Positions 9,219-40,200 of a stretch of DNA of 64,000 nt are shown one piece after another. Under the pieces are notes generated by a model. The model ran no database searches, was not told the DNA's origin, and worked only from the letters and a program-made list of their open reading frames with translations. Source of the DNA: a virus. Position numbers and translations under genes: made by a program. Numbering within the stretch: position 1 is the stretch's first letter; each line of letters opens with the position of its first letter. Location of the stretch: positions 1 through 64,000 of IMG/VR virus record IMGVR_UViG_3300025770_000012. One strand, written 5' to 3'.

Positions 9219-9770
9219 ATGACTATAGAAATAGATTTTGAAATCTTAAAAGACACTCAAATGAGTGCAGATGACTATCTCTATCTTTATATAGTATATA
9301 GAAAAGGGTTTAATTATTTAAGCAGCCTCAATTTAAAACCCAATTTAGAGCAACTGCAACGCAGTGGTTTCATTAAACTCGGCGAATCGCCTGATCAGCA
9401 TGAGATACAGCAAGCTTTTATAGACTTGTTTACCTCGGATTTTGATCAGATGTTCGCTGAGTTAGTGGGGCTCTATCCGGTTAAAGTTGAAACATCCACA
9501 GGTATTCGAGTGTTACACGCTATCGATCCAGAGGCTAAATCTAATAGAAGAACTAAAACGTTATACAGTAAGGTAGTTAATCAGAAGAAAGCCACACATA
9601 ATCATATTATGACGTGCCTTAAGAAGCAGCTACTTGTCCAAAAAGACAATTTAGGGTATTTACAGAATTTAACCACATGGGTTTCCCAACATACTTGGGA
9701 ACAATACGAAAATTTAAGCGAAGATGACACAAGAGCCACCACCAGACCAAGAATCACAAGATCTTTATAA
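9219..9770 (+). CDS. Unknown replication-region protein, candidate helicase loader
   Basis: 183 residues with no catalytic motif. The N-terminal part is helical (MSADDYLYLYIVYRKGFNYL), the middle is a globular block with FDQMFAELVGLYPVKV and HAIDPEAKSNRR, and the C-terminal half is helical and basic. I do not know a characterised family. Its gene overlaps the DnaB-type helicase gene by 47 bases, and helicase loaders are usually encoded beside their helicase, so a loader or primosome role is a reasonable guess from position only. Confidence 0.65.
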   Translation: MTIEIDFEILKDTQMSADDYLYLYIVYRKGFNYLSSLNLKPNLEQLQRSGFIKLGESPDQHEIQQAFIDLFTSDFDQMFAELVGLYPVKVETSTGIRVLHAIDPEAKSNRRTKTLYSKVVNQKKATHNHIMTCLKKQLLVQKDNLGYLQNLTTWVSQHTWEQYENLSEDDTRATTRPRITRSL

Positions 9771-10674
9771 AAAAAGAGGTTTTCATAGCATAGAACAATC
9801 AGTCGATACCTCCTTAACAGAGGTAAGGACAGGTATGCTAGGGAAACGCCGTCTCTTACCAACAAAATGGGACAAACTGAATAGAAATTTATTAGGGGGA
9901 CTACAGCCTGGAAAAATGTATGTAATAGCAGGAAGACCCGGAGTGGGTAAGTCTGCATTCTCTAATCAATTGATATTTGATGTTTTAGATAGAAACGTAG
10001 ACAAAAAGCTTATAGTATTATACTGGAGCTTTGAGATGCCTGGGCATCAGCAAATTCTACGAGCTGGATCTAAAGATGTAAAGAAAGAGGTTATTGATCT
10101 TCTATCGGTAGAAAAGAAACTATCTAAAGAAGACTACGATCGTTATGAAGAGAAGGTAGCTGCCTACAGGCATTATCCTATCTATTTTAATAATATTCCT
10201 AGGACCATCAAATACATCAAAGAAACTAACGTTGAGGTATTTAAAGAAACTCCTGGAGCATTAATTATTAATCTATTTGACCACTCAAGGCTTATTATAG
10301 GCCAAGCGGACTCAGAACTACAAAGATTAAATGAACTCTCTAAAGGTTGCATGTGGATGCAAGCTAAAATGGGAGTTATTACTGTATTACTATCACAGTT
10401 AAATAGAAACATAGAACGTGAGCATAGAGCTAAACAGCAATATCAGCCCATGCTTACTGATTTATTTGGAGGAGATAGTATAGGACAAGACGCACACGTA
10501 GTTATGATGCTACAGAGGCCCTTTGATTTGTATGGAATAACAGAGTTATACTGTAATGAAGATCCAGTAGGATTACTTGCAGTACATATTGAAAAAAACC
10601 GTGACGGCCTGCTTGGGATGATACCATTCGAAGCAGACATGAGCACATTTACAATTACCGAAAGAACTAAATAA
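9724..10674 (+). CDS. DnaB-type replicative helicase (RecA-like domain only)
   Basis: 316 residues. Walker A is GRPGVGKS (70-77), the catalytic Glu lies in YWSFEM, Walker B is the IINLFDH strand, and LLSQLNR plus DLFGGDSIGQDA match the later DnaB motifs. It would unwind DNA at the fork as a hexamer. The DnaB N-terminal domain is missing: only about 40 residues precede the ATPase core, as in other short phage helicases. I keep the 9724 start although it overlaps the previous gene, because the residues before the core look family-like. A later ATG at 9835 is possible. Confidence 0.88.
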   Translation: MTQEPPPDQESQDLYKKRGFHSIEQSVDTSLTEVRTGMLGKRRLLPTKWDKLNRNLLGGLQPGKMYVIAGRPGVGKSAFSNQLIFDVLDRNVDKKLIVLYWSFEMPGHQQILRAGSKDVKKEVIDLLSVEKKLSKEDYDRYEEKVAAYRHYPIYFNNIPRTIKYIKETNVEVFKETPGALIINLFDHSRLIIGQADSELQRLNELSKGCMWMQAKMGVITVLLSQLNRNIEREHRAKQQYQPMLTDLFGGDSIGQDAHVVMMLQRPFDLYGITELYCNEDPVGLLAVHIEKNRDGLLGMIPFEADMSTFTITERTK

Positions 10675-10922: not shown

Positions 10923-10977
10923 AAGTGAACATAACCAATAGTGAATGAACTCACTTAATAGCATAACTAAAAGTGAA
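10923..10977. repeat. Cluster of AGTGA repeats, possible operator or iterons
   Basis: AAGTGAA occurs at 10923-10929 and 10971-10977, AGTGAA at 10940-10945, and the inverse TCACTT at 10951-10956. CATAAC is also repeated twice in the same 55 bases. The cluster fills the gap before the zinc-ribbon gene and lies about 560 bases before the DnaA-domain gene. It could be a protein-binding site; the short repeats could also be chance in A/T-rich DNA. Confidence 0.3.
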
Positions 10978-10983
10978 AACAAA

Positions 10984-11097
10984 ATGGAAGACGAACTAAC
11001 AAGTGACTGCTGCGGAGCTTTCACCACCCACCCCGAAATGGGTATATGCCCTGACTGTTTAGAGCATTGTGAATTTACATCTACAGAAGATGAATAA
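10984..11097 (+). CDS. 37-residue zinc-ribbon-like protein
   Basis: Frame from ATG 10984 to TAA 11095-11097. The peptide has CCGAF at residues 9-13 and GICPDCLEHCEF at 20-31, so C9/C10, C22, C25 and C29 are spaced like a small zinc ribbon, flanked by acidic ends. Very short proteins of this CCG...CPDCLEHCE pattern are, from general knowledge, frequent in phages and bacteria of this group. Function is unknown. Confidence 0.65.
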   Translation: MEDELTSDCCGAFTTHPEMGICPDCLEHCEFTSTEDE

Positions 11098-11177
11098 CGA
11101 CTGTCAGCATCGTGCTGATAGGTAAAACATAATTAAATATAACGTAACGGTCTGTGTTTAAAACTATGTGATACCAA

Positions 11178-11256
11178 GAAAGGAGTCCGCAAGTAAAATC
11201 AAATAAATGGTGAAGACCTTGCTTAGTTGATTAGCTGACTTAGCGGGCTCCTTTTT
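11178..11256 (+). terminator. Long-loop terminator
   Basis: AAAGGAGTCCGC (11178-11189) pairs with GCGGGCTCCTTT (11243-11254) over 12 positions with one G-T, around a 53-base loop, followed by T residues. It is another long-loop hairpin like the one at 2200. A TCAGCA/TGCTGA mini-hairpin near 11105 lies just upstream. Confidence 0.6.
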
Positions 11257-11281
11257 AGTATTAATTTAAAACTATATAAAA

Positions 11282-11541: not shown

Positions 11542-11979
11542 ATGATAGAAACAAAACCTTTAAGTGCACGTTTACAAAAAATAGTAGACGATGTATTTCC
11601 CATGCTTGAACAAATAACTGGAGTAGATCAGGAATTAGCATGCAAAAATGACAGACGGCGTTTTGTGGTAGATTCCCGTAAAATTTTAGTAAACATATTA
11701 CGTAAACAAGCAAATTTAACGTGTATGCAAATAGCTAGAATTATAAGTAAAGACCACACTACAATAGTCCATTACGAGAAGATGCATAAAATACATATGA
11801 TAGAACCTGAATACAGACGTATGTATTCTGCTGTAGCTGGTATGTACGCAATAAATGATACTATAAGAACTCATGAAAGTCTTAAAAACCAGTTTGATAC
11901 TCTACAGTATCAGACTAAAAATCTTTTAAATTCTCTTGAGAAACAATGTGATTTAATGGCCCAAATAGCTGAACTATGA
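11542..11979 (+). CDS. Stand-alone DnaA domain IV (DnaA-box-binding type) protein
   Basis: 145 residues. Residues about 42-90 match the DnaA C-terminal DNA-binding domain: SRKILVNILRKQANLT, QIARIISK, then DHTTIVHYEK at 71-80, which is the DnaA signature (DHTT). The AAA+ ATPase part of DnaA is absent. The C-terminal 55 residues form a coiled coil, perhaps for dimerisation. It could mark the phage origin or recruit the replicative helicase, or act on host DnaA boxes; which of these cannot be told from sequence. It sits between the helicase and Sak4 groups. Confidence 0.8.
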   Translation: MIETKPLSARLQKIVDDVFPMLEQITGVDQELACKNDRRRFVVDSRKILVNILRKQANLTCMQIARIISKDHTTIVHYEKMHKIHMIEPEYRRMYSAVAGMYAINDTIRTHESLKNQFDTLQYQTKNLLNSLEKQCDLMAQIAEL

Positions 11980-12227
11980 CAAAAGCACGTATAATAGAAT
12001 TTGACTCCGAGCATGGAAGCTTGTACATAGAAGTTAAATATGAATATGACCCAGGATTTAGAGGGTCACAAGATGAACCTCCTGAAGTAGACCAAATTTC
12101 TATACTCGATGTAAAGATTATGTCTAAAGGAGAAGAATATGTTAACTTTATTACAACCTTAAAAGATGACATTCAAGAATACGAACGTGAAGGTGGGGGT
12201 AGATATAACCCTGCAGATGATCGTTAA
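11976..12227 (+). CDS. Small acidic protein of unknown function
   Basis: 83 residues, starting in an ATGA overlap with the DnaA-domain gene, so the two are coupled. Beta-strand-like N-terminal half (ARIIEFDSEHGSLYIEVKYEY) and an acidic, Gly-rich end (YEREGGGRYNPADD). No motif recognised. The coupling suggests it works with the DnaA-domain protein. Confidence 0.6.
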   Translation: MTKARIIEFDSEHGSLYIEVKYEYDPGFRGSQDEPPEVDQISILDVKIMSKGEEYVNFITTLKDDIQEYEREGGGRYNPADDR

Positions 12228-12294
12228 CCGAAGTGCACAGATACACTGTGTGCTATAATTATTAACCTGGTGGTTCAGGGATTATAATTTGGCG

Positions 12295-12323
12295 AGGGGG
12301 AGTACAATGGTAGTCCCCCTTTT
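12295..12323 (+). terminator. Intrinsic terminator
   Basis: AGGGGGA and TCCCCCT form a 7-bp G/C-rich stem around a 12-base loop, followed by TTT. Upstream in the same gap, A/T-rich arms around 12253 and 12281 could pair, but this was not checked by folding. Confidence 0.7.
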
Positions 12324-12354
12324 GCACTAATAAAAATTTAAATAAAAAACATAA

Positions 12355-13065
12355 ATGGATACCTATATTGAATTACCAAACCAAAAGATAAAGGCCAGCC
12401 GGAAATCACCTAAACATATGATTGTGTATGGTGCACCTAAGGTTGGTAAAACTACTGCACTAGCTCAGCTAGACGACTGTCTAATAATTGATTTAGAAGA
12501 CGGATCAGATATGCTAGATGCTTTAAAAATAAAAGCACATAGTTTACAAGATCTAGCTAAGATCGGAAAAGCAATCATGCTCGACGGCAGACCATATAAA
12601 TATGTAGCCATCGATACAGTCTCTAAATTAGAAGAGTGGTGTGAAGATGAGGCTAAGAAGATTTATATGAAAACTCCTATGGGTAAAAACTTTGAAGAGA
12701 AAAATCCTGGAATGTCAATACTTTCATTACCTAATGGTGGAGGGTACTTATACTTGCGTATGGCATATAAGAAATGGATCGATAGATTAGGAATGCTAGC
12801 AGATCATGTCATTCTTGTAGGGCACTTAAAAGATAAGATGCTTGAAAAGAAAGGCAAAGAAGTAGCAGTTAAAGACTTAGATCTTACAGGAAAGATTAAA
12901 CAAATTACGTGTGCCAATTCGGACGCAGTTGGGTATATCTATAGAGAGAATGATGAAACAATGATTTCTTTTGATTCTTTAGGTGATATTACAGCCGGAT
13001 CTAGATGTGACCACTTAAAAGGTAAGACCATGCCTCTAGATTGGTCAAAAATATTCATAGACTAA
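12355..13065 (+). CDS. Sak4-like RecA-fold ATPase (phage recombinase family)
   Basis: 236 residues. Walker A is GAPKVGKT (26-33), followed by the acidic IIDLEDGSD strand typical of AAA_24/Sak4 proteins, the Walker-B-like KYVAIDTVSK, and HVILVGHLKDK as the next core strand. Sak4 proteins are single-strand annealing or RecA-like ATPases in phages and normally work with a phage SSB. Two genes later lies an SSB candidate (13484). The gene starts a unit after a terminator. A strong family match, but activity is inferred. Confidence 0.85.
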   Translation: MDTYIELPNQKIKASRKSPKHMIVYGAPKVGKTTALAQLDDCLIIDLEDGSDMLDALKIKAHSLQDLAKIGKAIMLDGRPYKYVAIDTVSKLEEWCEDEAKKIYMKTPMGKNFEEKNPGMSILSLPNGGGYLYLRMAYKKWIDRLGMLADHVILVGHLKDKMLEKKGKEVAVKDLDLTGKIKQITCANSDAVGYIYRENDETMISFDSLGDITAGSRCDHLKGKTMPLDWSKIFID

Positions 13066-26300: not shown

Positions 26301-28246
26301 TTAGCGCTTTTAGATACCTGCAGGTCTCTAATAATTCTTCTAGACGCATTAATTCTTTCTTGCAAACGTTGCCTCTCAGCATAGTTGGCATCTTTTTGTT
26401 GAGAAATAAGAATAGTTAATCTATCCCCTTCCTTTCTTATCAACTTATCTAGCCTAGCGAAACCGGTAGTCTCGTGAGCCAAAGCTAGCTGTTGTATGTA
26501 TTGATTATCATCTGTTTCTAGCTGAATATCATTTACAATCTTGGTGGGCATGTTATTAGAGTCTCTCTTATAGTCTAACATAATAGGCACAACTCTAGAT
26601 CTAACAACTTCAGTAACTCCGTATTCACTTAACAGAGTATGTACATAACTACCCATCTGTAAGTCATAAGTCTCAGCGCTCTCTAACCATACGTCCTTTC
26701 TAAGAACTACTTTACCTGTTTTTTTATCTCGGTAAGCATATCCAGTATGTGTTTGAGCGATCTTAGATTTGTAGTCAAATATAGCTGCTGAACCATCACT
26801 AAAGAATGCAAGAAGGTCAATAGTACCACCCATCTTCTTAGCACGATTAAGAACAAACATCTCTGTACGAATATGAACTTTACCTTTAGGATCTTTTTCC
26901 TTCTGTATTGCTTTAATGTCTGCAACTAATTTCTTAGCATACGCATTAAGCTTCTTAAAGTTTGCTCCGTATTCTGAGTACTCTCGTTCTATTTCTGCAG
27001 GGCTTATTTTAGAATTACCAGCATGAAAGTCAATTAGACGCTCCATAGTTTCGTGAACCCTATTTCCTGAGGTAGTGTGTATCTCAGACCATCTGTCATA
27101 CTTCTCTTTCTGCTCATCCGAATAGTATCTTTCTGTACTAGAATACTTCAAAGACCCCTCGTCTGACATACGTTTAAACAGAACCTCACCAGTTACTGAG
27201 TTTCGGTAACGCATCACCGTGGTCTCTCCAACACCGGCTAATTTCTTAAAGTACGGATCATCTCCCACAGGCACTGGTACGGCTTCCCACTTCGATTGGT
27301 CTGCTTCTACCCTTTCTAATGGAGTGGCTTCTGCCGTAGCAGAGGATGCTTTATAAAAGGTTTCATCTGGCAATACCATAGTAGCCGGATCTGCTTGCAT
27401 CACATCAGCTAAACGATTATCCATAAGAATCCGCGCAGTCTTTGAGAAAGGGTTCCCGGCTGTGCCAAATACTTTATTTAGAAGGGCTAATACTTTTTGC
27501 CACCATCTATTTAATCTCGATAATTTAGCAGGGTCTAGCTCTGTAGCTTCAACGTCTGTCTCATTACCCATAATGTGACGTGCTATTACTTTACCAATCG
27601 CTTCACGTTTAAGAAGCTCTACGTTTCCTTCATATTTTTTATAGTAGAATCCATTAGGATCCATAATTTCCGCAAATTCAGCATATCCCTCAATCTGACT
27701 CATCATAGAGCGGTATAAGGGATGGTCATCAGTTTGAAGCATAGCTGTAATAAAGTGAGCTGCCTCCTCTGCTAATGCATCAGTAGTTGCCTCACCTTGA
27801 GAAAGTCTTATAACTCTATCAAGAAGTCTAGCCTGACCGACTACTGGAAGTACCTGTCCAGTCTTATCTTTAATCTGGCTAGCAACTTCAACTTTAACTC
27901 CCACGGTCTCTAAGAAGTTATGAAGTGCCTCACCTAGCTTGTCTTTCTTGTACTCATGGCTTAACTCATGTACAGCAGCTTCATATTCCCCCACATTCTG
28001 TGCCGCCTTAGTTATTAAACGTACGGCGTCAGGAGTTAAAGCAGGGTTGACCTCCCCCTGATTATTCATAACAGCTTGAATTTCTCCAGACTCCGCTTTA
28101 GTTTGGAGTTCTAGGTATGAAGCATACGATGCGGTAGGATCGCCTACTATCTGATTGATAAATTCAAACAGAGCAGATGGATTCCCATCATTAGCATATA
28201 CTTCAACTACTTTGCCTGCGTTATCTTTTACTATATTACATGCCAT
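23345..28246 (-). CDS. Large virion-type protein with zincin-like motif and PD-(D/E)xK nuclease
   Basis: 1633 residues. Near the N terminus is VHELSH (H93, H97), a zincin-like HExxH, with a related EEAAHF at 159-164. Residues about 430-540 form a RecB/Cas4-like PD-(D/E)xK nuclease: GGTIDLLAF (D477), IFDYKSK (D491, K493), and a downstream YDLQMGSY. A long helical, coiled-coil-rich middle follows, then a C-terminal region with WLPGIAIERFG and hydrophobic VFLLIGLMLALGG. It starts in a TAATG overlap with the 4636-aa gene. Large packaged proteins with peptidase and nuclease domains match the polyvalent-protein theme; injection with the genome is likely but inferred. Confidence 0.75.
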   Translation of the reverse strand: MACNIVKDNAGKVVEVYANDGNPSALFEFINQIVGDPTASYASYLELQTKAESGEIQAVMNNQGEVNPALTPDAVRLITKAAQNVGEYEAAVHELSHEYKKDKLGEALHNFLETVGVKVEVASQIKDKTGQVLPVVGQARLLDRVIRLSQGEATTDALAEEAAHFITAMLQTDDHPLYRSMMSQIEGYAEFAEIMDPNGFYYKKYEGNVELLKREAIGKVIARHIMGNETDVEATELDPAKLSRLNRWWQKVLALLNKVFGTAGNPFSKTARILMDNRLADVMQADPATMVLPDETFYKASSATAEATPLERVEADQSKWEAVPVPVGDDPYFKKLAGVGETTVMRYRNSVTGEVLFKRMSDEGSLKYSSTERYYSDEQKEKYDRWSEIHTTSGNRVHETMERLIDFHAGNSKISPAEIEREYSEYGANFKKLNAYAKKLVADIKAIQKEKDPKGKVHIRTEMFVLNRAKKMGGTIDLLAFFSDGSAAIFDYKSKIAQTHTGYAYRDKKTGKVVLRKDVWLESAETYDLQMGSYVHTLLSEYGVTEVVRSRVVPIMLDYKRDSNNMPTKIVNDIQLETDDNQYIQQLALAHETTGFARLDKLIRKEGDRLTILISQQKDANYAERQRLQERINASRRIIRDLQVSKSANAVIREVSQTLKVIEKGLNTNKEYLKNGDPNPDYMSAAELNNAYQDLKHFSKFTTLTDIIKSLEKKDKDAAARLSKDLEVLHADIARKQESLVEKMMERLDVSASNKGVRGITEFNKEVGKLTADWVSRSGQSHPALRLIHNFKAEIEGHLVRIEKELATEIESKTNALFEWGSANGYPGASVYDVLINPNTRNLYARFNEKYTEDRKKAFEDQDIKWLQQYFEVDQELLDKEYKNWRANQIKLLKEKGGSAKTQASRLAKWETRFNPKHETAWYNPTNPFLKAGKDNNKMGKYLSPEYMKIQNSPVLKDFYDYHIKKTSEFLRLMGVDKKYNYVADIHKNMIDQFLQDGFDMGKMKQAWLDKFQLKEHDKQFGMVGLDGEFLRSIPRFHVTPLKNSQDKYDSSLKSKELGKNLYLLGSAAHMYSYLNDITPTLLMMESLFKDSHIEEATQDKLGDIILDSIGRAKGEATRTNAGTITEFINAEFFGQSLVTKDKTFGKDLSVNKTILVAKNYHTIATLGLKSPVAIGALGAGFMGLEMQASKGLYLTRSNLRAAQKAYFSRDPKLRAVFEYFQLTLEDLSTRRADMLSSTTRAKYMTADRWFEFLARADRTLDAVLAAGMAMNYGINPKTKKLELLKDLPEGTESIWDTIEIEENPTWERTGTQDRYLTKIPEVENLKENNRNWVSFKQKVHKIGSKVKGAVPKEDRFNSQNKLINRLFIHYRSWLPGIAIERFGNLRYDYIMENFDQGTWKTMWGNIGADAQFDSFGQVVDTETWMHIFTTDALTDLAKIGVDIGTFGLTNAYKIKDNRARLEFEKFIENEKGNPEFDFKNEAEKEVSFEKFLDFKRANIRGALMELRAVFLLIGLMLALGGDWDDDDKVDLKQSWAGRKLLSVVNRIYRETAVFYDPTEMTGPRASGIPLISLAQQGLKWTSNSMDEMRDGLFGEDSAQDRTGPGYYTWKFLPGLSGVVRAAEIYPQDKIVR

Positions 28247-31200
28247 TATTCACACTCATTTTCGTTGTTTGCTTTTCTTAAAGATTGTAGGTCTAAAGTA
28301 CTTGATACTGTTTCAGGTGCTAACTCTTTAGGTTGAGAAGGTATCAACTTCTGCGTTTCTAATGTTTCTACTGCAAAGAAACTTCGTTTAACTCTGCCAT
28401 TAATAAAGGACGTGTTGTATTTATCCTTAGAAAAGTCAGCCCAGTTTTTATATCCTGAGCGTTTTGCAATAGAGGCTTTAAGGGCCTTTTCATCCTTAAC
28501 TCCAAAAATACGATATTCATCCTTATTAAGCAACTCCCGCAATGAGCTGGTTGAAATGTGCTCTAAATGAATAACAGTTCCATTGGGTAATATCTTCGTT
28601 CCAGCCTTAACCCGCTTTGGGTCATTAACATCATATGCAAAATGCAACATGTCACGTTTAGATTCGTGTAGCTGCTTAATTATTTTTGTAGTTAGATGAA
28701 GCCTTTGTCTACCAAATGGATGATTATTAGATTCTATAATCGACTTATCTGTGTTTACTTCTATTAAGTGGCCCATAATGCCTTTTTTAGCTCTTCGCTT
28801 ATAGACATAATAACCATCTTCACTAGTGCCTACATATTCTAAGTGCACTGTAAAATACTTCTCATTTGAATTGGACGCGATACCTTTTGCAGCCCCTCTT
28901 TGTCTAAGTGACTTTATAGTTACTCTGTCATCATTAAACTCTTTAGTGTAGATCACTTCATCAGATTTATACATACTCTTATTGGAGTACTTATGACGTG
29001 TAATCCTAGGGTTATCCCAAGAATTATCTAAGAAGTCTATTTTTATGTCTTGGATTACTGAGGTAGTAATACCCCCAACACTTATAGCGTCATGAACTGC
29101 CTTCAGCATAGGTGCTGTTGCATCTAAAACTTCAACTCCAGGGAGCGCATGAAAGAAAGAAGTAGGATGAAAACCTGTTCCAGACTTCATCATACTAAAT
29201 AGTACAATATCATCCGCTAGTCTTTTTCCAGTGGGTCCACTATTAGAAAGCTCATACCAAGCATCTGCTAAGTCATCAATTTCTGAAGGAGCGTACTTTC
29301 TAGAGAATAACTGCATCATATCTATTGTATGATCGAAATCTGTAGGGTCTGTAAACTCTTGCAAACTAGAAATAAGGTCTTGAATAAGAGCGTTATCTGG
29401 GAAGGTATCTTTAGCTTTAAGTACTCTAGCAGGTAAACTGTTATCTCCTTGGAAGTACTCAGACAAACTCTCATTTAACTTAGTTAAATCAGTTCTTTGA
29501 TGTGCCTGCCAAACCCAAGAGGTAACAAAATTATCAAATGCACGTAGTACATATATAATCTCATCTTTTGATTTACCTTCTGAAATAAGATCTTCTGCCA
29601 TTTCCACCATCGCAGACTTTAAAGGATTAATCGACTTACCATTAATATCAGTACTCATTGCCTCTTTCAAATCAGTCTGTGTAAAGTAATCTGGAGCTGT
29701 AGTATACATATCCTGTAGTTTACTTACAAAAGGAGCAGACTTATCTATTCCCTCCTCAGACCCTAATTGACCAAGACCAAAGATTCTACTTGTCTTATTA
29801 GAAAGACCGTAGAATGCATTCTTACGATTTACAATATTACCAAGCGCAGCTAGATGTATAAGATCATACCCACTTCCTATCTTATCCGTGTCGAAGGATG
29901 AGAGCTTCTGAGCTTTTCTAAGAAGATCTGCATATTCTTTATATCGTAAGAAGTCTGAGAAGATTTGAGCTTGTAATCCCTTTTGTCCCTTACCCATATC
30001 CTTGAGGTTAGTAACTAGCAGACTATCTGAAGCTCTAACCATTTTACCAGATCGAGATTCCTCATGTCTGTCCAAAGCCATCTCATTTAAAGCGGCTGTT
30101 CCTTCAGATTCTCCTACTAACTTTCTAATCTGATCTTGAACATCGGTTTCAGAATACGACTCAGCATAATCACTTGTTGTGGAAGCTATAGATTGCATAT
30201 TCTTTAAGCGATAGTACTCTTGTATTACAGGCTGTGACATAAACTTAAGAACTGTTTCTAGAGGAACTCCAGCGCGTATTAGCATAACGTGCACTGCAGC
30301 TCCTGATTGCCCTGCATTGACATACATAGCAAATGGATCCTTCTCACCATCTACATAAGCAGTAATGTACTGCTGCATAGAACGATTTATATAGTTTCCA
30401 TTAACATCTTTAACTCGTGATAAAGAAATAGTCTCATTCTGCAGGCCTTCGAAGTTTAGATTATATACTGTAGTATCCATTGGATCTCCAAATCTATCTA
30501 CTTCTTCTCCTGCCTGATTAAACCCAAATCCGGCTCTTTGTGATTTTCCAAGGTCAGACATATTGGTTGCAATAATACCCGTACCCCCTAACGTTTGGTG
30601 CATTTGATACGTAGTAGTAATGAGATTATCCATACTAAATATATCAAAGAGTGCTGTGGCTTCTGCTTCTACACCCTTAATACCTGCGGCTACTTGTGCG
30701 TTATGTATCTCATGTGCAATATCCTTTAGCTCAAATGCACCTACTGGGGCAATTAACTGTGGAAAGCTTGCTGGGTGCTTTAAGATATTCTTCATATTCT
30801 CAAGAAGCATATTCTGAACAACGTCACTAGGCTGTTGCATTACATCAGATAGATTATCCCATCCCATCTGAACCATTGTAGTACTTAACTCTATACCCAT
30901 GACAACCTTTTCAGAAGGATCTATCTCATCTCGGTAAGCTGTGATGTCAAGTAAGAAATCTCGTAAGCTGTTAGAATCTGTTCCAAATAACTCTGCAGCT
31001 GCAGCTCTGAATGCGTTAACATCCCTATCTAACAACTCTAATGGATTGTCTATTCTTGATACTAACCCTACTTTACTTGTTCCATCTTCTAAAACTGTTC
31101 TAGAAACATTAGGTAAGTAGATAGTTAATTTATCAATATCATAGTCAGCTCCTGACTTAGCTACCATCTCATGTGGTACAACTACTGTTGCCCCCATACT

Positions 31201-34200
31201 CTCTGGTAAGAAATCAGCTACTTTGATAAACTCTACAGAATTCAATCCCTCAGTAGGGATACGGAATCCTACTAGTTCTCTAGCAGCATCAGTTAAGTCT
31301 TCAATTCTAACTTCTCCTTCTCCAAAGTGCTTACGCATGTAGTGAGGTAAGTAAACTTCCATAGCTGTTACAGTTTTACCATCTTTCTCGAAATCATAAA
31401 AACGTAATGTTCTATACCCTGGTAAATCTACTGTATCTTGCTTTCTAGCTTTTAAAGTAAACCCTACATCAGGTTGAAGTACAGCCATAGTACCATTGAT
31501 CTTTCTAGCTATAACCGCATTGGTTACTATTGAATATAGAAGATCATCTAATTTTTGTTTATTGGCTAGCGAGTTTGTATATGAAAGATCCCCAGCAAAT
31601 AACTCTTCAACTGTATCCTTCATATGCTCCGGATTCTCTCTCTTAGAAAGTTCTTCAAGGAGAGCATTTTTCATAGACGGCTTAGATTTTCCTGGGATGG
31701 CCTCATATCCTTCTTGAGTTCTAATGAATCCTAACTTAGCCGCTAATGATGCTTTATCCTTTTCTATCATCGCACTATGGATGGCATGGAACTGCTCATC
31801 CAAAGCTTTAAACTCTGGTCCGTAATTTTCAGTATTTAATACCCCGTCTACAAAGACATTCATAAGAGCCATACTTGCAGACTGTGTACCTACTCGGACG
31901 TTAGTCTTATTCTTTAAAGTAGGATCTAACTGCACACCAAAGTATTCAAGATCGAATTCTTGTTGGTATGAGCTGTCGGCGGACAGTGGTATGTACTCTC
32001 CGGTTTCTGTATTAAATGCAGGCTCAAATTGACCCTTAGCATTAGTCTTAGCTCCAACCTTAGTACCAGACTCAAACACCATATAGTCAAGATTATTATT
32101 AACCATATCATAATAAAGATCATCCATAGCAGTATCCTGACCTTGTTGTGACACGGTCTTGGATAAATTTGGATGTACTGGGTATAAAGCGAATTTGTTG
32201 AAGATATTGACTCGCATACCTCCTACTACAGAAGGTGCAAATACTTGTGGCTTCAATGGTGGAAACAGCGCTAACTCTGAAGGATGTACCTGCTCTCCGG
32301 CAATGATCTTTCTATATGCCTGCTCCTGCTTATCACTCCAGTTATCTGTTAAGAACAATGTACTCCGATAAAAGTCAAACGTAACTAAACCTCCACCATC
32401 AAAGATTTCCATATTAGAATATGCTTTAGACACAGAATCTACAAGATCCTCACGGCCTAATTCTACAAGTCTGTTTATGTACTTATCTAAATATGGAGAC
32501 TTCCCAATAACATGTTCCTTTCTAGTAACGAATCTAACAGTTGGAGTATGATCCTTCTTCGTACCCATATTAGGCATGTTATTATTCATCCACTCTAGTA
32601 TACCTTGTGTGTATGTTGGATACTTCTTAACACCCACCATACCCGATGTTCTCTTGAACACATCTTTATAAAGTGCAGGACTACCTAAGAACAATCTATG
32701 TTGCTCTACTATTCCAATCAACTGATTGTTAGCTAATTTAGTAGCTACCCTATTTATAACCGCAGAAGATACTCTACCGTTATCTGTAAACGCAGCTGAT
32801 CTTTCTCTCTCCGGCAGTGACTCATATGCCTCGTCTATGTGAGTATTATCAATACCAATGTTATTATATCCACCCTTTGCTCCTTTGCTAATAAAGCCAT
32901 ACTTAGTTAGTAAGTCTAAAGCCTCCTTTTCTTTTTTAGCTAAGAAAGCCAGTATTTCTATTTGGGCATCTTTTCCGTATACTGCATCTAACAGTTTAGG
33001 ATCTGTTTCTGATAATTTACCATTTCCAATATGGAATAGAGCCAATTTCTGAATCCGTGGAAAGGCTACAGGGTCACCAAAGAACTGTAGTTTCTGCCCG
33101 TTCTTTTTTAATTCTGGAATTTGTTGAATCTCTTTATTATTAGCGATTGAGTTAGCCATTAAGATTTCACCCAAAAGCAGGTCTTGTAAATACTTACGCA
33201 TTTCCGGTAAAGACCTATGCTTATTATGGCCTATCTGCAAGGCCTTTTCCATCTTCTTATTTCCTGTTCGAATCAATGGAACAAAACCCTCTAAAATAGA
33301 AGCTACATGCTCTAACGCAATATTGGCCTTGGTAGTCCTAGAAATATCATGCCCCACTCCTCTATGTATATCCTTACCTCCCTCAATGGTCCTTATATTC
33401 ATCACAGGCTCCGAGAGATATAATGACCCTCGCATCCAAGGTGATTCTTTTAATAAAGCCTCTGCCTCTTCTTCGGTGCTATTCAGTTTGTCAGCTAGTA
33501 TATTAATATAGCTTTTACGAGTAATACCGAACACCACTTTATTCATAGGATTAACGTGTTGAAGTGTGATAGCTAAATCTGTAGTATCTATCTCGTAGCC
33601 TAATAAAGTCTTTAAGTTACCTTCTACCTCTCTACCAAACAAAGAAGATACGTCTCCTTCTGATTCTATAATCTCTTTAAATACCCATCCAGCCACTGCT
33701 TCAAACCCCTCTAGTCTGCCATTCTCCTGCATCTCAATAATACGAGACTTATTGCTATAGTTGATTCCAATAACATCAAGTAATGCTAGCAGCTGTGGGA
33801 ATGTTAAGTTTGTCTGAGTCCACTGTTTGAATGATTTGTGCTGCATAAGACCAGACCCACTAGGTATACCAATGCTTCCTTTTTTATCTATATCAAGTAC
33901 ACGTCTACCCCCTTCTATAGTTTTACCCAGTCCTCTTCTAACGTTGTCTTTGAAGATGCTGTTCCATGAGCGCTTTAATATATTCTCTGCTCTGTCTGTA
34001 TTAGAATTAGTAAAATATCTACCCGGATTAGTTTCATAACTTGTCTGGTTAGCCATTAATGTCACATACTCTTCAGAAGCCACATTGAACGTATTCAAAA
34101 AGCCCATTAACATGTACATCTGATTAGCGTTTAAATGCTCTACAGATTCTATTCCCTGACGTATACCTAAACGGTCAAGTAAAAACGCGTATGTTTTGTT

Positions 34201-37200
34201 TTCTTGGGCAAGCCCTTGTAATACATCTACCATGTCTTCCACATTGTGGACATTAGCTAGATTTTTATACAGAGTATTAATAACTTGACTAAACGTAGCC
34301 AACTGATATGTACCCGATCTATTCTTCTTAAACAAAGATTGCCCGTCCATATCACTAATGGTCTGAGGTAAAGTACCTAGAAGTAATTTAACTCCAGGAG
34401 AAACAAGTGTTCTCTGATCAATAGTATTAGCAGCTCTAATTCCAAGAGTATCTCTGCTCATACCATTCTCTTCTAGTTCCTGATTTAGAACCTCTTCTAA
34501 GCTTCTAGTATTTGCATCCAATTTAAATTGCTGCAAGTACTCTATATTCTTAGCAATCAGAGACCCCCATTCTGCTTCGAGAACAGTTAAGACCTCCTCA
34601 AGTTTCTGATAATCCGTTTTAAGCTGTAATATACTCTTAGCCATAGATGCAGGCTTCCCTGCAGCTCGCCAAGTTTGTATCATTGCATTAGTTTTTTCTC
34701 TTAAAGCTTTTTTGTCCTGTACAATAGAACTTCTCACGATAGAATAGACAGTGCCCTTACTTCCAGGTATGCCGTATAGTTTACCCAGCTTTTTACCCAA
34801 TGCTTTGGGATCATTTTTAATCCCGAACAGATCTTCAATCTTGATAGTATCTGTTTTAGACATAACGTCAAATAGCGCCACTGTCATACCACTGCTCAAA
34901 TCTCGCTGAACTCCCGTAGTAGATTTCTTAGCTCGACTTGCCGCTCCTGCTCTTCCGTTTAGAGCCTCTTCAACACTGTAGACGGTATAATCCTCAATAG
35001 CATTATTATAGTACCCTGTGTGGATCCTATGAAACAAATCTTGTGATTGCTTTGCACTATTTAAGAACTTAAATAAGAAACTAAATAACTTCTGAATCCA
35101 AGACTTTTCTATATTGTCCCCGACAGTATAGTTACCATCAGCTTGGACATATTCACGAAACTCCTCAGCTAACCACTCATCTGCTTCTAAATCTGTAAAG
35201 TCTTTAAGATCTTTAACTGCTCCTTTATATGTAGTTGCTTTTCCTTTTAGACCTCGAACTTCATTGTATAGCTCAGCTCTTTCCTCTGGAGAAAGTAGTT
35301 TTAATGTGATTCCGTGGAATGTCTCGTGATAAAGTGTACCGGCGGCAGCATCTGCAGAAAGAAGTATTTTCTCTGTCTTACTAAAGAATCCCCAATCTGT
35401 ACCATTGACTAGCCTTCTAACTATTTCAACATCAAAGATAGGATTACCATGTTTGTCTTTGGGAACCATCTTCAAGAATTTAGCATATTCTTCCTCGAAG
35501 TTCATACGCTGATAGTCATCGGATATAAGAGCAACTCTGCTGCTTCCTAATGTATCATCATCTTCTTCCTCATCCTCTTCAGGAAGTTCTTCTATGTCGT
35601 TCTTTTTAAGATCCTTTTCATCCTTCTTTGCTTCGTCTTCAGTCTTTTTACCTAGATCTCCCAACTTCTGTTCAGTAGTCTCATATACTGTATACTCAAC
35701 TACTCCATCCTCATCTACATTTTCTCGAGATGTATATATAGCAGCCATTAGCTCTGCAGACATTTCATCAGTTACCCTCTCTAACGCTATAGAGTTTCCC
35801 TCTGGTCCTGTTATAGATTCTAAATCAAAGTGAGTTAAACCGTTCTCATGGTCAACGTGATTTATAGTGAGTATAATCTCAACACCGCTTGATCCTTGAA
35901 CGTACCTATATGTCTGTCCTTCCATAACCCCTGAAGGGGCCAGCCCCTCTACCTTCTCTTCGGCAACTGGAGTTTCTTCGTCAGTTTCGTCGTCGAGAAT
36001 ATCTGCATTTACAGGAACGTTTCTCAACTTTGGGGCTGAAGTTGGGTCTCCCATCTGAGATAAAGGAGTGGTCTTAACTTGTGAGCCGTAAGTAAGATAA
36101 ACATTCATAAATTGAGGAACCTCATACGATAAGTTATCTCTACTAGCAGAGGACACATCTTCTTCCATATTTACTGTAACGGGAACCTCATGAATACTTC
36201 TAGATGAAGTTTCATTAAGAGCCTTTTTACCCATTAAGAAATGAGTATAGTTATCCCAGACTCTAGTAGTCACTGTAAGATCTGCTCCAACTACGACCTC
36301 AGTATACTGCTTATAATTAGGATTAGCATCCTGCTTTTTTAGAAGGGCTTTTTCTTTATTAGTTAAACGAGCTAGTTTATTTCTAATCTCCGACTCACTT
36401 GCAGTTTTATGTTTTTTTCTAGCTGCTATTATCTTCTTGCGAATAGCCTTCATTACGTCTGAACTAGATTCAGTAGCAATATCTGTTCTTCCTTTGCTTC
36501 GTACTTCTTCGTCAGCTTTTAACGCTAGATTATTAACTTGAACATGTAGATTAGCAATGAATGTTCGAAGCTCCTCATGCATAACAGGGTATGTCTCCTC
36601 ACTTGCTAATTGAGCAAATGTGATAGACTGGTCTCCGAAATACAAAGTATCTCCCTTAGTAAAAATAGAAAACGCAGAGTTTTCCCTTCCTGCAGAGTGC
36701 TTACCAAAGTATATTAATTCAGTAAGCTGCTTTATAATACTCTTATCGTAGTTAGGAGGGAATAGAGCGGATGTGGGTGTGAAATCAGCATTCTCAGTCT
36801 TAGAGTTCTCCACTTGAGTAGCTAAGAGCTTTAAGAGATGGTACACATTACTAGCTATCTGAGGAGGTAGCGTATTCATTTTAAATCTAACTAGGTTATC
36901 ATCCTTAACTGCATAGAGAAAACCTGCTCTAACAGTGTATTGTCTACCCGCAATGGATACCTTATTAGTTTCCTTATTACTACTAATTCTAAGATCAATA
37001 TTTTTAACATCTTCTTCTCTTTTAACCAGCGTAGTGCCTGCAAATCCTTTATGGTCATAGTTCAGACCTGGATAAATTTGCATTCCGTGAGATTTACCAG
37101 AGATAGGAATATAAGTGTTACCTTCAGATTGAGCTAGTAACTTTCTACGGAAATCTACATGCTGCTCTAGAATAGCTTTAGACTCCTCTGACATCTCGCC

Positions 37201-40200
37201 AGTAAAAAAGTACTTACCATCAACTTTAAACCCAGGTACAGTTCCATTTACTTTCTTAAGATCTGCTCTACCGTATCTATAAACTTGATGAGTCTTACCT
37301 TGAAGATCTGCTTGAGGCTTGTACGCCTCACTGCCCATCATACTAGTATAAATGACTCTTCCGTTTACTCTTACTGGAACACCGCGTGAATCTACTACTA
37401 AAAGAACAAGATCTTCTTGAGATTCATCTCTCAACTCATTTGTACTAAACTTAGTTGGTTTCCCCTCTTTATTTGTAGCCGCAGAATACCTTGGATCTCC
37501 CTTAGCTCGCTTAGCTCCTGGATGATTATAAAAGAGAACATCTGCCCCAACCTTATTATCAGCATTTGCTAACTGATTATCAAAATCTATAATATTCTGT
37601 CTTGTAAGAACAACTAACTTATGATGATTTGCCAAATCATTTCTATTAGTTTTAGCTGTCCATTCAAAAAATACTTCTTGGTTTATATACGCTTGAAGTT
37701 GAGCTTTCTCAAAAGGCTTTAACTCTCGTTGTGTGGCAAGCAACTGCAATTCTTCTCGCTTAGCACTAGCAACTGCATGGCTTCCTGCAGTTTTACCCAT
37801 TCCAGTATGTATAATTGCAGGACTATTATAATAAACCTTTGGCTTAGTTCCCTTTTGATTATCTATGCTCTTCTCAAATTCCTCATCGTCCATCTCTGCC
37901 TCCTTATTATTATCTTCATACTTTCCTTTCTCTCTTTCGTCGGGGATAGTACTAGCTTCTGGCGTGAGAATATCATCTATAATAGTAGTAACAGTATTAA
38001 ACTGATCAATTAAGATGTTGTTGGCGGCGACAATTTTCCCTTGAAGGGTAGTCTGTTTCTGCACCTCCTCAAAAACGGGACTTAGCTCCATTTGTAGCTC
38101 TGTCCTAAGTTTTTCAACAGCAGTATTATATCCAAGCAGCATAGCGTCAACATTGTTAACCATAGCTTCATATGTAGCCCTATTCTGTTCTTCTGTTGCG
38201 CTTTTAAATCTAGCATCATAAGACCCATCTGCTTTGAAATGGAGCATACTTCTAAGACTTTCTAAAACAGGTAACGCTTCTTCGTATTTAGTTTTAAGAT
38301 CTGCAACTCCTGCATCGAGAAGTCGTACAAGCTCCAGAGGAAGCTCATCCATAGTAGATGCAAAATGATATACAGCTTGTGCTAGCTTGTTTAGTTTGTC
38401 CACATCCTCCTCGGTAGTGAACATCTCAGACAGCAATTCTACATCTTTGAAAAAGCCATCCCCTACAAACTTTTCTAAAGTTTCAGCTAATGTATTCCAC
38501 TGTGTTTTTAGATGCTCTTTGATTCTCTCAGCAACATCCTCTCTAGACTCTGCTCCTAAAACAACCTCAATCAGCTTATTGACATTATTAAGCTTTTCAA
38601 CTAAGACAGCTTTATTTACTTCAATACTAGAAATAGCTTGTTCAACCGCTGCTAGCTCTACTGCCAAGTTTTTAACTTTCTCTGCAAGATCTTTCTTACG
38701 TCTCTCACTTACTCGTGAAGAGTTTGCTTTAACTAAATCTTCAGCTAACTTCTCTGCTGCTTCAACAGCATTCTTTAGTCGTTGATCTTCTGCTGCTATT
38801 TGATTTTCTAATTCTTGTCTAGCCTCGATTGTAGCAATGTCGATAATCTCTTGCACCTGAGCCCCAGCACTTATTTCTCTAAGATTCTCTGCCTGTAATA
38901 AAAAGCTAAGATTACGTTCTTGATACTCTGTTGTAAACCCATTAGCTTTTAATAGTTCATTTATCTCCTCAATTCTTTTGCTGGCCTCTCTGTTGCCTTC
39001 TAGCTTTTCTAAAGCTCTTAACTCTAAAATAAGCTCCACATTCTCTTGTGTAGGATATGTGATTAAGAAGTTGTCCTGATCCGAAGTTGGCTTACCCGGT
39101 CTTACATAGAACCTATATGTTCCCGTTTTAGGACCAGTCTCTATCTTAACACCTGCCGTGGTAAGAGCCGTTTTTAAAGAATCTATTTCTGATAGCCCAG
39201 AATCTTTTTCACGAAGCGCTAAAGCATCTTTAATAATTTTCTCTTCTATACCTGCCTCTTTAGCTCGAGCAAGAAGACCTTCTTTGGTATCCTTATTAAT
39301 TCTAGTATAATCAAATTCAATTACTTTTCCTTGGTACTTGACGAATAGACGCTTAAGTCTGAGATCTTTAATGTCTTCAGCATTGTCTGTCGCCGGGTCA
39401 TGTAACATCTCAGGACGTAACATCCTAGGCTTTGGTACTTTTTTACCTCTGTGCTCCTGACTTCCTAAACCAAATGCTGCTTCGTTCTCATGGTAATCCA
39501 TAAGCTCGTTCACCATATCTATCTTTCTGTGACGTCTAGCTCTGACCTTTCTAAGGTCCTTCATCATAGTCGTTACATTCTTAATATTTTCTGTGTGCGA
39601 TCCAGGATCGTCATTCTTCCACTTATCTAAAAGAGCTTGCTCTGAGGCACTTAAATCTGGGTCTAACCCTTCATTTATCGCTTCTAGTAACTCGGTAGTC
39701 TTCTTATCTATCGAGTCAAATTCGTCTCCTAAAGTTCTTAGCTTAGCCCACTTAACTTGCTCTGCTTCAGTGCCTCCAATATTATGACCGTCTTTATCAA
39801 AGACAGCAGGTTTAGGAGTTACTGAGTCGTCTTCTTCTAATGCGGTTATTTCCTCCTCTAATTCTTTTCTACGCGTGATTAGGTTTAACACCAATTCCTC
39901 CATATGTGTAGGATCGGTAAATTCTTTGATGCCAACCATCTTCATGTAAGCCTTAGCTTCAGGAAGTGCTAATATCTTTGACTTCTGCTTCTTTGTCAGA
40001 CGGCCCCACAGTCTAGATACTCTAGCTCGAACCCCTATATCTTCTCTCTTATCTCTTTCTAAACGAGATTCCACATCCATCTCTCCTTCCAGTGTGCTCC
40101 CTATGATCTCTTCAATAGCTTGGATCATAGCATCTTCACGAGCATCTAAGTTCTTACTAGTTGCCAGCGCGTGTACAATAGCATCTTTAACGTCTTCGTC

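Follow-up and report, generated by a model that had tools for sequence, protein, structure and literature searches.

A small gene in the viral record IMGVR_UViG_3300025770_000012 raises the question of what a phage does with just the DNA-binding domain of the replication initiator DnaA. The record comprises 84,947 bases, and its positions 1-64,000 (hereafter the window) are the stretch under study. Judged by its sequence, the phage carrying this gene is crAss-like; its portal protein shares 29-33% identity over 83-96% with crAss-like phage portals in the 12 matches listed, and the gene order polymerase, ScpB-like, DnaB, Sak4, primase is the order in Crassvirales records. The sole PHROGs match of the gene at the ScpB-like place is weak (E 0.016), pointing to a protein of replication initiation, and the 50-aa Cys-rich protein encoded further downstream has no match in Pfam. 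Elsewhere in the window, a 4636-aa ORF (28246-42156, minus strand) has one PHROGs match, to a family of unknown function. The features of the locus are collected in Table 1.

Table 1. Coordinates of the features described, given as positions in the window.
Feature	Position	Strand	Basis or remark
Gene at place of Crassvirales 'segregation and condensation protein B'	9219-9770		weak PHROGs match
DnaB-like replicative helicase	9724-10674	+	neighbour
50-aa Cys-rich protein	10945-11097	+	zinc-ribbon-like by eye; found ahead of the gene pair in L001 as well
DnaA domain IV protein with C-terminal helix	11542-11979	+	ORF, 145 aa, ATG start
PF08299 (Bac_DnaA_C) match, helix-turn-helix with DHTT motif	11605-11775	+	profile match
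Long C-terminal helix, residues 89-144	11806-11973	+	predicted, AlphaFold2 model; heptad in last 34 residues
Gene of the acidic 83-aa partner (computed pI 4.4)	11976-12227	+	ATGA overlap with the DnaA domain IV gene
Conserved element, covarying hairpin at its start and terminator-like second hairpin	12222-12354	+	window compared with L001
Sak4-like ssDNA annealing protein	12355-13065	+	neighbour

In a Pfam profile search, residues 22-78 of the 145-aa protein matched PF08299 with an E value of 7.3e-7 and a score of 29.6 bits, slightly below the curated cut-off of 31.5 bits; the fold of DnaA domain IV (DnaA-IV) and kinship with it are claimed here, and formal Pfam membership is not. Among viral contigs, the nearest relative found is the homologue at locus L001, with 48% identity across the aligned part; it scored 44.7 bits, above the cut-off, and three more distant relatives scored 46.7 to 64.9 bits. 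An AlphaFold2 model built from a two-sequence alignment had a mean pLDDT of 89.6 and matched the DnaA-DBD of M. tuberculosis (Z 14.8, 95 residues, 1.6 A) and E. coli DnaA domain IV on DnaA-box DNA (Z 14.3, 92 residues, 1.6 A), and the first non-DnaA fold in the structural ranking had a Z of 6.7. This confident model gives the protein the DnaA domain IV fold. No AAA+ ATPase was found in the 145 residues, to which DnaA models align solely through their C-terminal end, and the record holds one PF08299 match in total, with no second. These data bear out the earlier note, which had recognized DnaA domain IV without the ATPase, and indicate that the protein keeps just the DNA-binding domain of DnaA.

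R407, D433 and H434 of DnaA have DNA-reading roles. In addition, contacts are made to bases by T435, to the backbone by R442/K443 and to the minor groove by R399/S400, according to the available text of one report (PMC9638019). E. coli DnaA, as encoded in NC_000913, served as the reference for an alignment of seven phage proteins (those of the window, L001, Gundel_1, phi19:3, tooticki6-1, HTVC100P and HTVC010P). All seven were identical at the equivalents of R399, R407, D433 and H434; the T435 equivalent was threonine in four proteins and alanine in three, and the T436 equivalent was threonine or serine. The K443 equivalent is methionine in the window and L001 proteins, and in the alignment to E. 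coli DnaA the P423 equivalent is lost. Among 12 proteins of related phages, R38, R46 and H72 were invariant and D71 was nearly so. Because the key DNA-reading residues are kept, the protein should bind DNA, perhaps at a box-like site. The kept residues and the absence of the ATPase/oligomerisation domain would also suit a host-directed competitor, in which a dimer would occupy DnaA boxes at the host oriC and block host initiation; the methionine in place of K443 and the loss of P423 argue against it.

The long helix that the model predicts behind this domain carries 4-3 heptad positions (L-F-L-T-L-L-Q-M-I) within the last 34 residues of the protein. Shuffling of these residues gave p values of 0.005 for the window protein and 0.0009 for the L001 protein, and shuffling of the last 35 residues gave 0.024 and 0.0012, respectively. 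The test took in 17 of the 18 distinct sequences of the family, and 13 of the 17 have a C-terminal heptad (p under 0.025 each, uncorrected for the number of tests); the other four have none and carry a terminal CxxC pair instead. A C-terminal coiled coil had been predicted beforehand, and the modelled helix and the heptad uphold this prediction; the helix probably pairs two copies of the protein.

Related loci (L024-L174) were taken from viral contigs as the best 80 of 302 and the best 80 of 484 matches in searches with DnaB and Sak4. An iterated profile found the DnaA-IV protein in 23 loci, the window and L001 included. The gene lies upstream of an SF2 helicase in 20 of the 23 loci, directly behind the DNA polymerase in 17 of those 20 (no polymerase was seen within loci L118, L145 and L001), and between DnaB and Sak4 in three (the window, L168 and L125). 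Searched whole, two of 15 long contigs (43-90 kb) have the domain and 13 do not. Furthermore, a scan of 12 records found PF08299 in none of the eight with similar replication genes (seven Crassvirales, one unclassified); the remaining four, picked as domain carriers, were all positive. The cr10_1 gene between DnaB and Sak4 is, by eye, unrelated to the DnaA-IV gene, and homology to the DnaB-Sak4 intergene of gut Crassvirales was dropped because of this dissimilarity and the missing PF08299 in the eight records. A profile search of genome contigs found no further relatives, and a plasmid search gave four weak matches, none above 80% coverage.

An alternative small protein, with an NYFKYSGE-like motif and a length of 28-146 aa (some possibly fragments; e.g., L040 2828-3211), lies upstream of SF2 in 78 of its 79 matches, and behind the polymerase where a polymerase is visible. 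Polymerase, SF2, DnaB and Sak4 are all present in 76 loci, some of which share one contig so that the counts are not independent; 18 of these have the DnaA-IV protein, 56 the alternative protein, none both and two neither. Counted as distinct DnaB-Sak4 pairs, 17 go with the DnaA-IV protein and 46 with the alternative protein. Mutual exclusion of the two proteins thus stands as a pattern. It may represent one old split, since a single DnaA-IV clade is not rejected: a quick tree of 63 loci had three changes between the two proteins (three with DnaB alone, two with Sak4 alone), and the tree constrained to one clade for all DnaA-IV loci was 1.4 log units better (p-AU 0.537), for which reason repeated exchange between the two proteins is not claimed. 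The window DnaB shares 79% identity with the DnaB of L063, an alternative-protein locus, and 65% with that of L001, whereas the window DnaA-IV protein is 48% identical to that of L001 and 17-22% to ten others aligned; the gene pair may therefore have moved between lineages. A scan of seven alternative proteins found several weak helix-turn-helix (HTH) matches in each of three, C-terminal in some, whereas three others lacked any and the seventh had a marginal one, so that the two slot proteins need not have equal function. One alternative protein also weakly matched 'transcriptional regulator' (E 2e-4) and sigma-factor (E 0.008) families.

The ATGA overlap between the DnaA-IV gene and the partner gene occurs in both the window and L001, and the partners of the two are 60% identical. 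This translational coupling suggests that the two proteins may form one complex. The gene pair is partly conserved: partner relatives, some of them remote, were found in 10 of the 23 DnaA-IV loci and in none of the 78 alternative-protein loci, and no partner was detected in the other 13 DnaA-IV loci. Two more partner matches touch a contig start, with the upstream sequence missing, and L170 and L174 have a small gene separating the DnaA-IV and partner genes. Pfam and PHROGs searches with the partner gave no match, not even to the GafZ family; in the phage collection, the window partner had no match at E up to 5, and the L155 partner none at E up to 1. A beta-beta-beta-alpha arrangement is predicted in its model, which is weak (pLDDT 70) and had a best PDB Z of 4.5, to unrelated proteins. 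Against a viral structure library there were two matches with E under 0.001, to uncharacterised phage proteins, at rmsd 12.8 and 16.6 A, and no fold is assigned to the partner from these comparisons.

Behind the gene pair lies a conserved element of 133 bases, whose L001 counterpart is at 1191-1323. All 20 pairs of its two hairpins form in both the window and L001. Seven of the 20 changed on both sides, compared with a mean of 3.5 in shuffles and 0-1 when partner columns were slid; this covariation comes from two sequences, and the structure was derived from the same two. The inverted repeat after the partner was considered as a palindromic operator and rejected, because four of nine pairs change on both sides and pairing is kept while sequence is not. 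Rfam, searched at its gathering threshold, gave no match in the window. A second folding non-coding stretch at 11098-11257 (11098-11240, z -3.2) ends in a terminator-like GGAGTCCGC...GCGGGCTCCTTTTT and weakly resembles the element (E 0.3).

Tentatively, and as a possible rather than a probable reading, we propose that the 145-aa protein is a dimeric regulator that binds DNA sequence-specifically and acts, together with the partner, on the replication/early region of the phage itself. The DnaA-type domain (residues about 9-85) would read a short site, and pairing of two copies through the C-terminal helix would let the dimer bind two half-sites; the acidic partner, made from the translationally coupled gene, would be an effector contacting host or phage machinery. 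On the replication/early region, the regulator would most likely act on transcription, as GafY-GafZ do, and would not be an ATP-driven origin opener. This reading is favoured by the fold scores, the kept residues, the heptad in most relatives and the restriction of partner relatives to DnaA-IV loci, as well as by the either/or slot, in which some alternative proteins have weak HTH or regulator-like matches; it is further favoured by GafY, the closest experimentally tested case found in the text available. Against it stand the partner, which lacks a family match and is missed in more than half of the loci, the alphaproteobacterial origin of GafYZ, and the four relatives without the heptad. Scans of the record for boxes and repeats found no binding site for the protein, and therefore no regulated promoter is proposed.

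The position in the replication module would fit a replication role equally, and it is here that a phage origin-recognition factor must be considered, which would bind a non-canonical origin, bring the neighbouring DnaB-like helicase and set replicon identity. In the window the DnaA-IV gene sits between DnaB and Sak4, and in most related loci it adjoins the DNA polymerase; both places might suit such a factor. In phi19:3, RecT, SSB and a COG1484 replication gene all lie no more than 5 kb from the DnaA-IV gene, and in the Tenacibaculum phage Gundel_1 the neighbours of that gene are NinB and two replication proteins. Also in Gundel_1, AACAGAAAGGG repeats cluster inside the replication gene that follows (L017 16569-17336), a candidate iteron origin. 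Polymerase swapping is known in Crassvirales, with replicon incompatibility offered as a possible driver in the available text of that report (PMC11348598). The earlier note had suggested that the gene may mark the phage origin, and a clustered-box scan of all 84,947 bases gave this no support: TTATCCACA was seen once (0.82 and 0.95 expected) and TTATNCACA twice (4.55 and 4.35 expected), boxes with at most one mismatch numbered 27 (25.8 expected), and the maximum was two boxes per 500 bases, a density reached by 58 of 60 simulations. A canonical DnaA-box cluster is ruled out for this record, and an origin with other sites is still allowed. Iteron-like clusters of 9-, 10- and 12-mers in the whole record (7, 0 and 0) were not above five shuffles, and 8-mer clusters numbered 65 against 31-54 in shuffles, the eight shown being scattered across the record. 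GC skew tracks gene direction and indicates no origin near the DnaA-IV gene. With the origin-opening ATPase absent and the domain missing from all eight similar records and most long related contigs, origin recognition is unlikely, although it ranks next after the replication-region regulator.

The box counts also bear on the host-oriC competitor. The phage's own boxes are slightly below expectation, and its genome would thus titrate little of such a protein. However, box scarcity is unspecific: alternative-protein loci hold 19 TTATNCACA against 36.5 expected and two TTATCCACA against 5.8, whereas DnaA-IV loci hold 11 TTATNCACA against 12.0 and five TTATCCACA against 2.8. Box enrichment in DnaA-IV loci is not claimed, since three of the five TTATCCACA are one homologous place (L164, L170 and L174). 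For predicted DnaA sites, positional asymmetry is described as absent in Alphaproteobacteria phages in the available part of one study (PMC9437464). Capture of host DnaA sites and control of host replication, both raised in the earlier note, would be compatible with the kept DNA-reading residues, and nothing favours either. Competition at the host oriC is improbable and ranks below origin recognition.

Least probable of all is some other explanation, such as a role in recombination or in organising the nucleoid, or decay of the gene; recombination genes are also among the neighbours, but the DnaA-IV frame is open in all 23 loci, with 18 distinct sequences, which argues against decay. It is conceivable, though rather doubtful, that a zippered DnaA-IV dimer and its partner are the replicon-identity factor of these phages, recognising an origin or control site peculiar to the phage, and that an unrelated small slot protein, which would be DNA-binding in at least some phages, can stand in for them. 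If so, related phages would avoid using each other's control sites. Whichever reading holds, many phage proteins labelled 'DnaA' or 'replication initiation' hold domain IV alone, and the stand-alone cellular case found studied has, in the text available, been re-read as a transcription activator; a 'DnaA' label should not be read as replication. The crAss-like group, with its partner and either/or protein, is a compact system for settling the roles of DnaA-IV proteins.

The regulator reading rests on comparison with known systems, and a transcription role, which was absent from the earlier note, has the best experimental precedent found, in GafY and GafA. Bacterial DnaA has the fold and the key DNA-reading residues in common with the 145-aa protein, which lacks domains I-III and has an extra C-terminal helix. 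In the available text of one report, GafY, whose gene shares an operon with that of GafZ, has homology to DnaA domain IV, binds GafZ, directly regulates transcription and is proposed not to act on oriC via DnaA, contrary to its earlier reading as the replication regulator HdaB (PMC9632790); in that of another, the GafY-GafZ complex activates transcription and GafY works with IHF (PMC11150451). Like the 145-aa protein, GafY (formerly HdaB) of Caulobacter is a stand-alone domain IV encoded in an operon with a partner gene, but its partner is GafZ, whereas the window partner matches no Pfam or PHROGs family, and GafY comes from a different phylum and works with IHF. We know of no zipper in GafY. 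GafA of Rhodobacter likewise has a DnaA-like N-terminal domain, described in the available text as a likely activator of GTA promoters (PMC9638019). Unlike the 145-aa protein, GafA is a single protein with a sigma-like C-terminal region, and its equivalents of R399/S400 are E8/S9, whereas the 145-aa protein keeps R38.

Among phages, stand-alone PF08299 proteins like the 145-aa protein occur in Pelagibacter phages, Muminvirus, Gundel_1, phi19:3 and uncultured Caudovirales; they are annotated as 'DNA replication initiation', 'DnaA protein' or 'DnaA C-terminal' and are 24-44% identical to it over 28-71% of the query. A protein of the crAss-like virus ctXt06 is among the fold matches (E 1.8e-3), and two Polaribacter phages have a gene named DnaA, according to the text available (PMC4615864). 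Two of six 'Bacteriophage sp.' unverified faecal scaffolds were examined, MT835859 (L021) and MT835476 (L020); both look bacterial, since near full-length DnaA lies beside dnaN-like ORFs (by eye), and these two were not accepted as phage relatives. No paper on the DnaA-IV protein of crAss-like phages was found in the literature searched, which left subscription journals mostly outside. Taken together, stand-alone DnaA-IV proteins are already common in phages, and what is new here is the form seen in crAss-like phages, which bears a heptad, comes with a partner gene and occupies an either/or slot.
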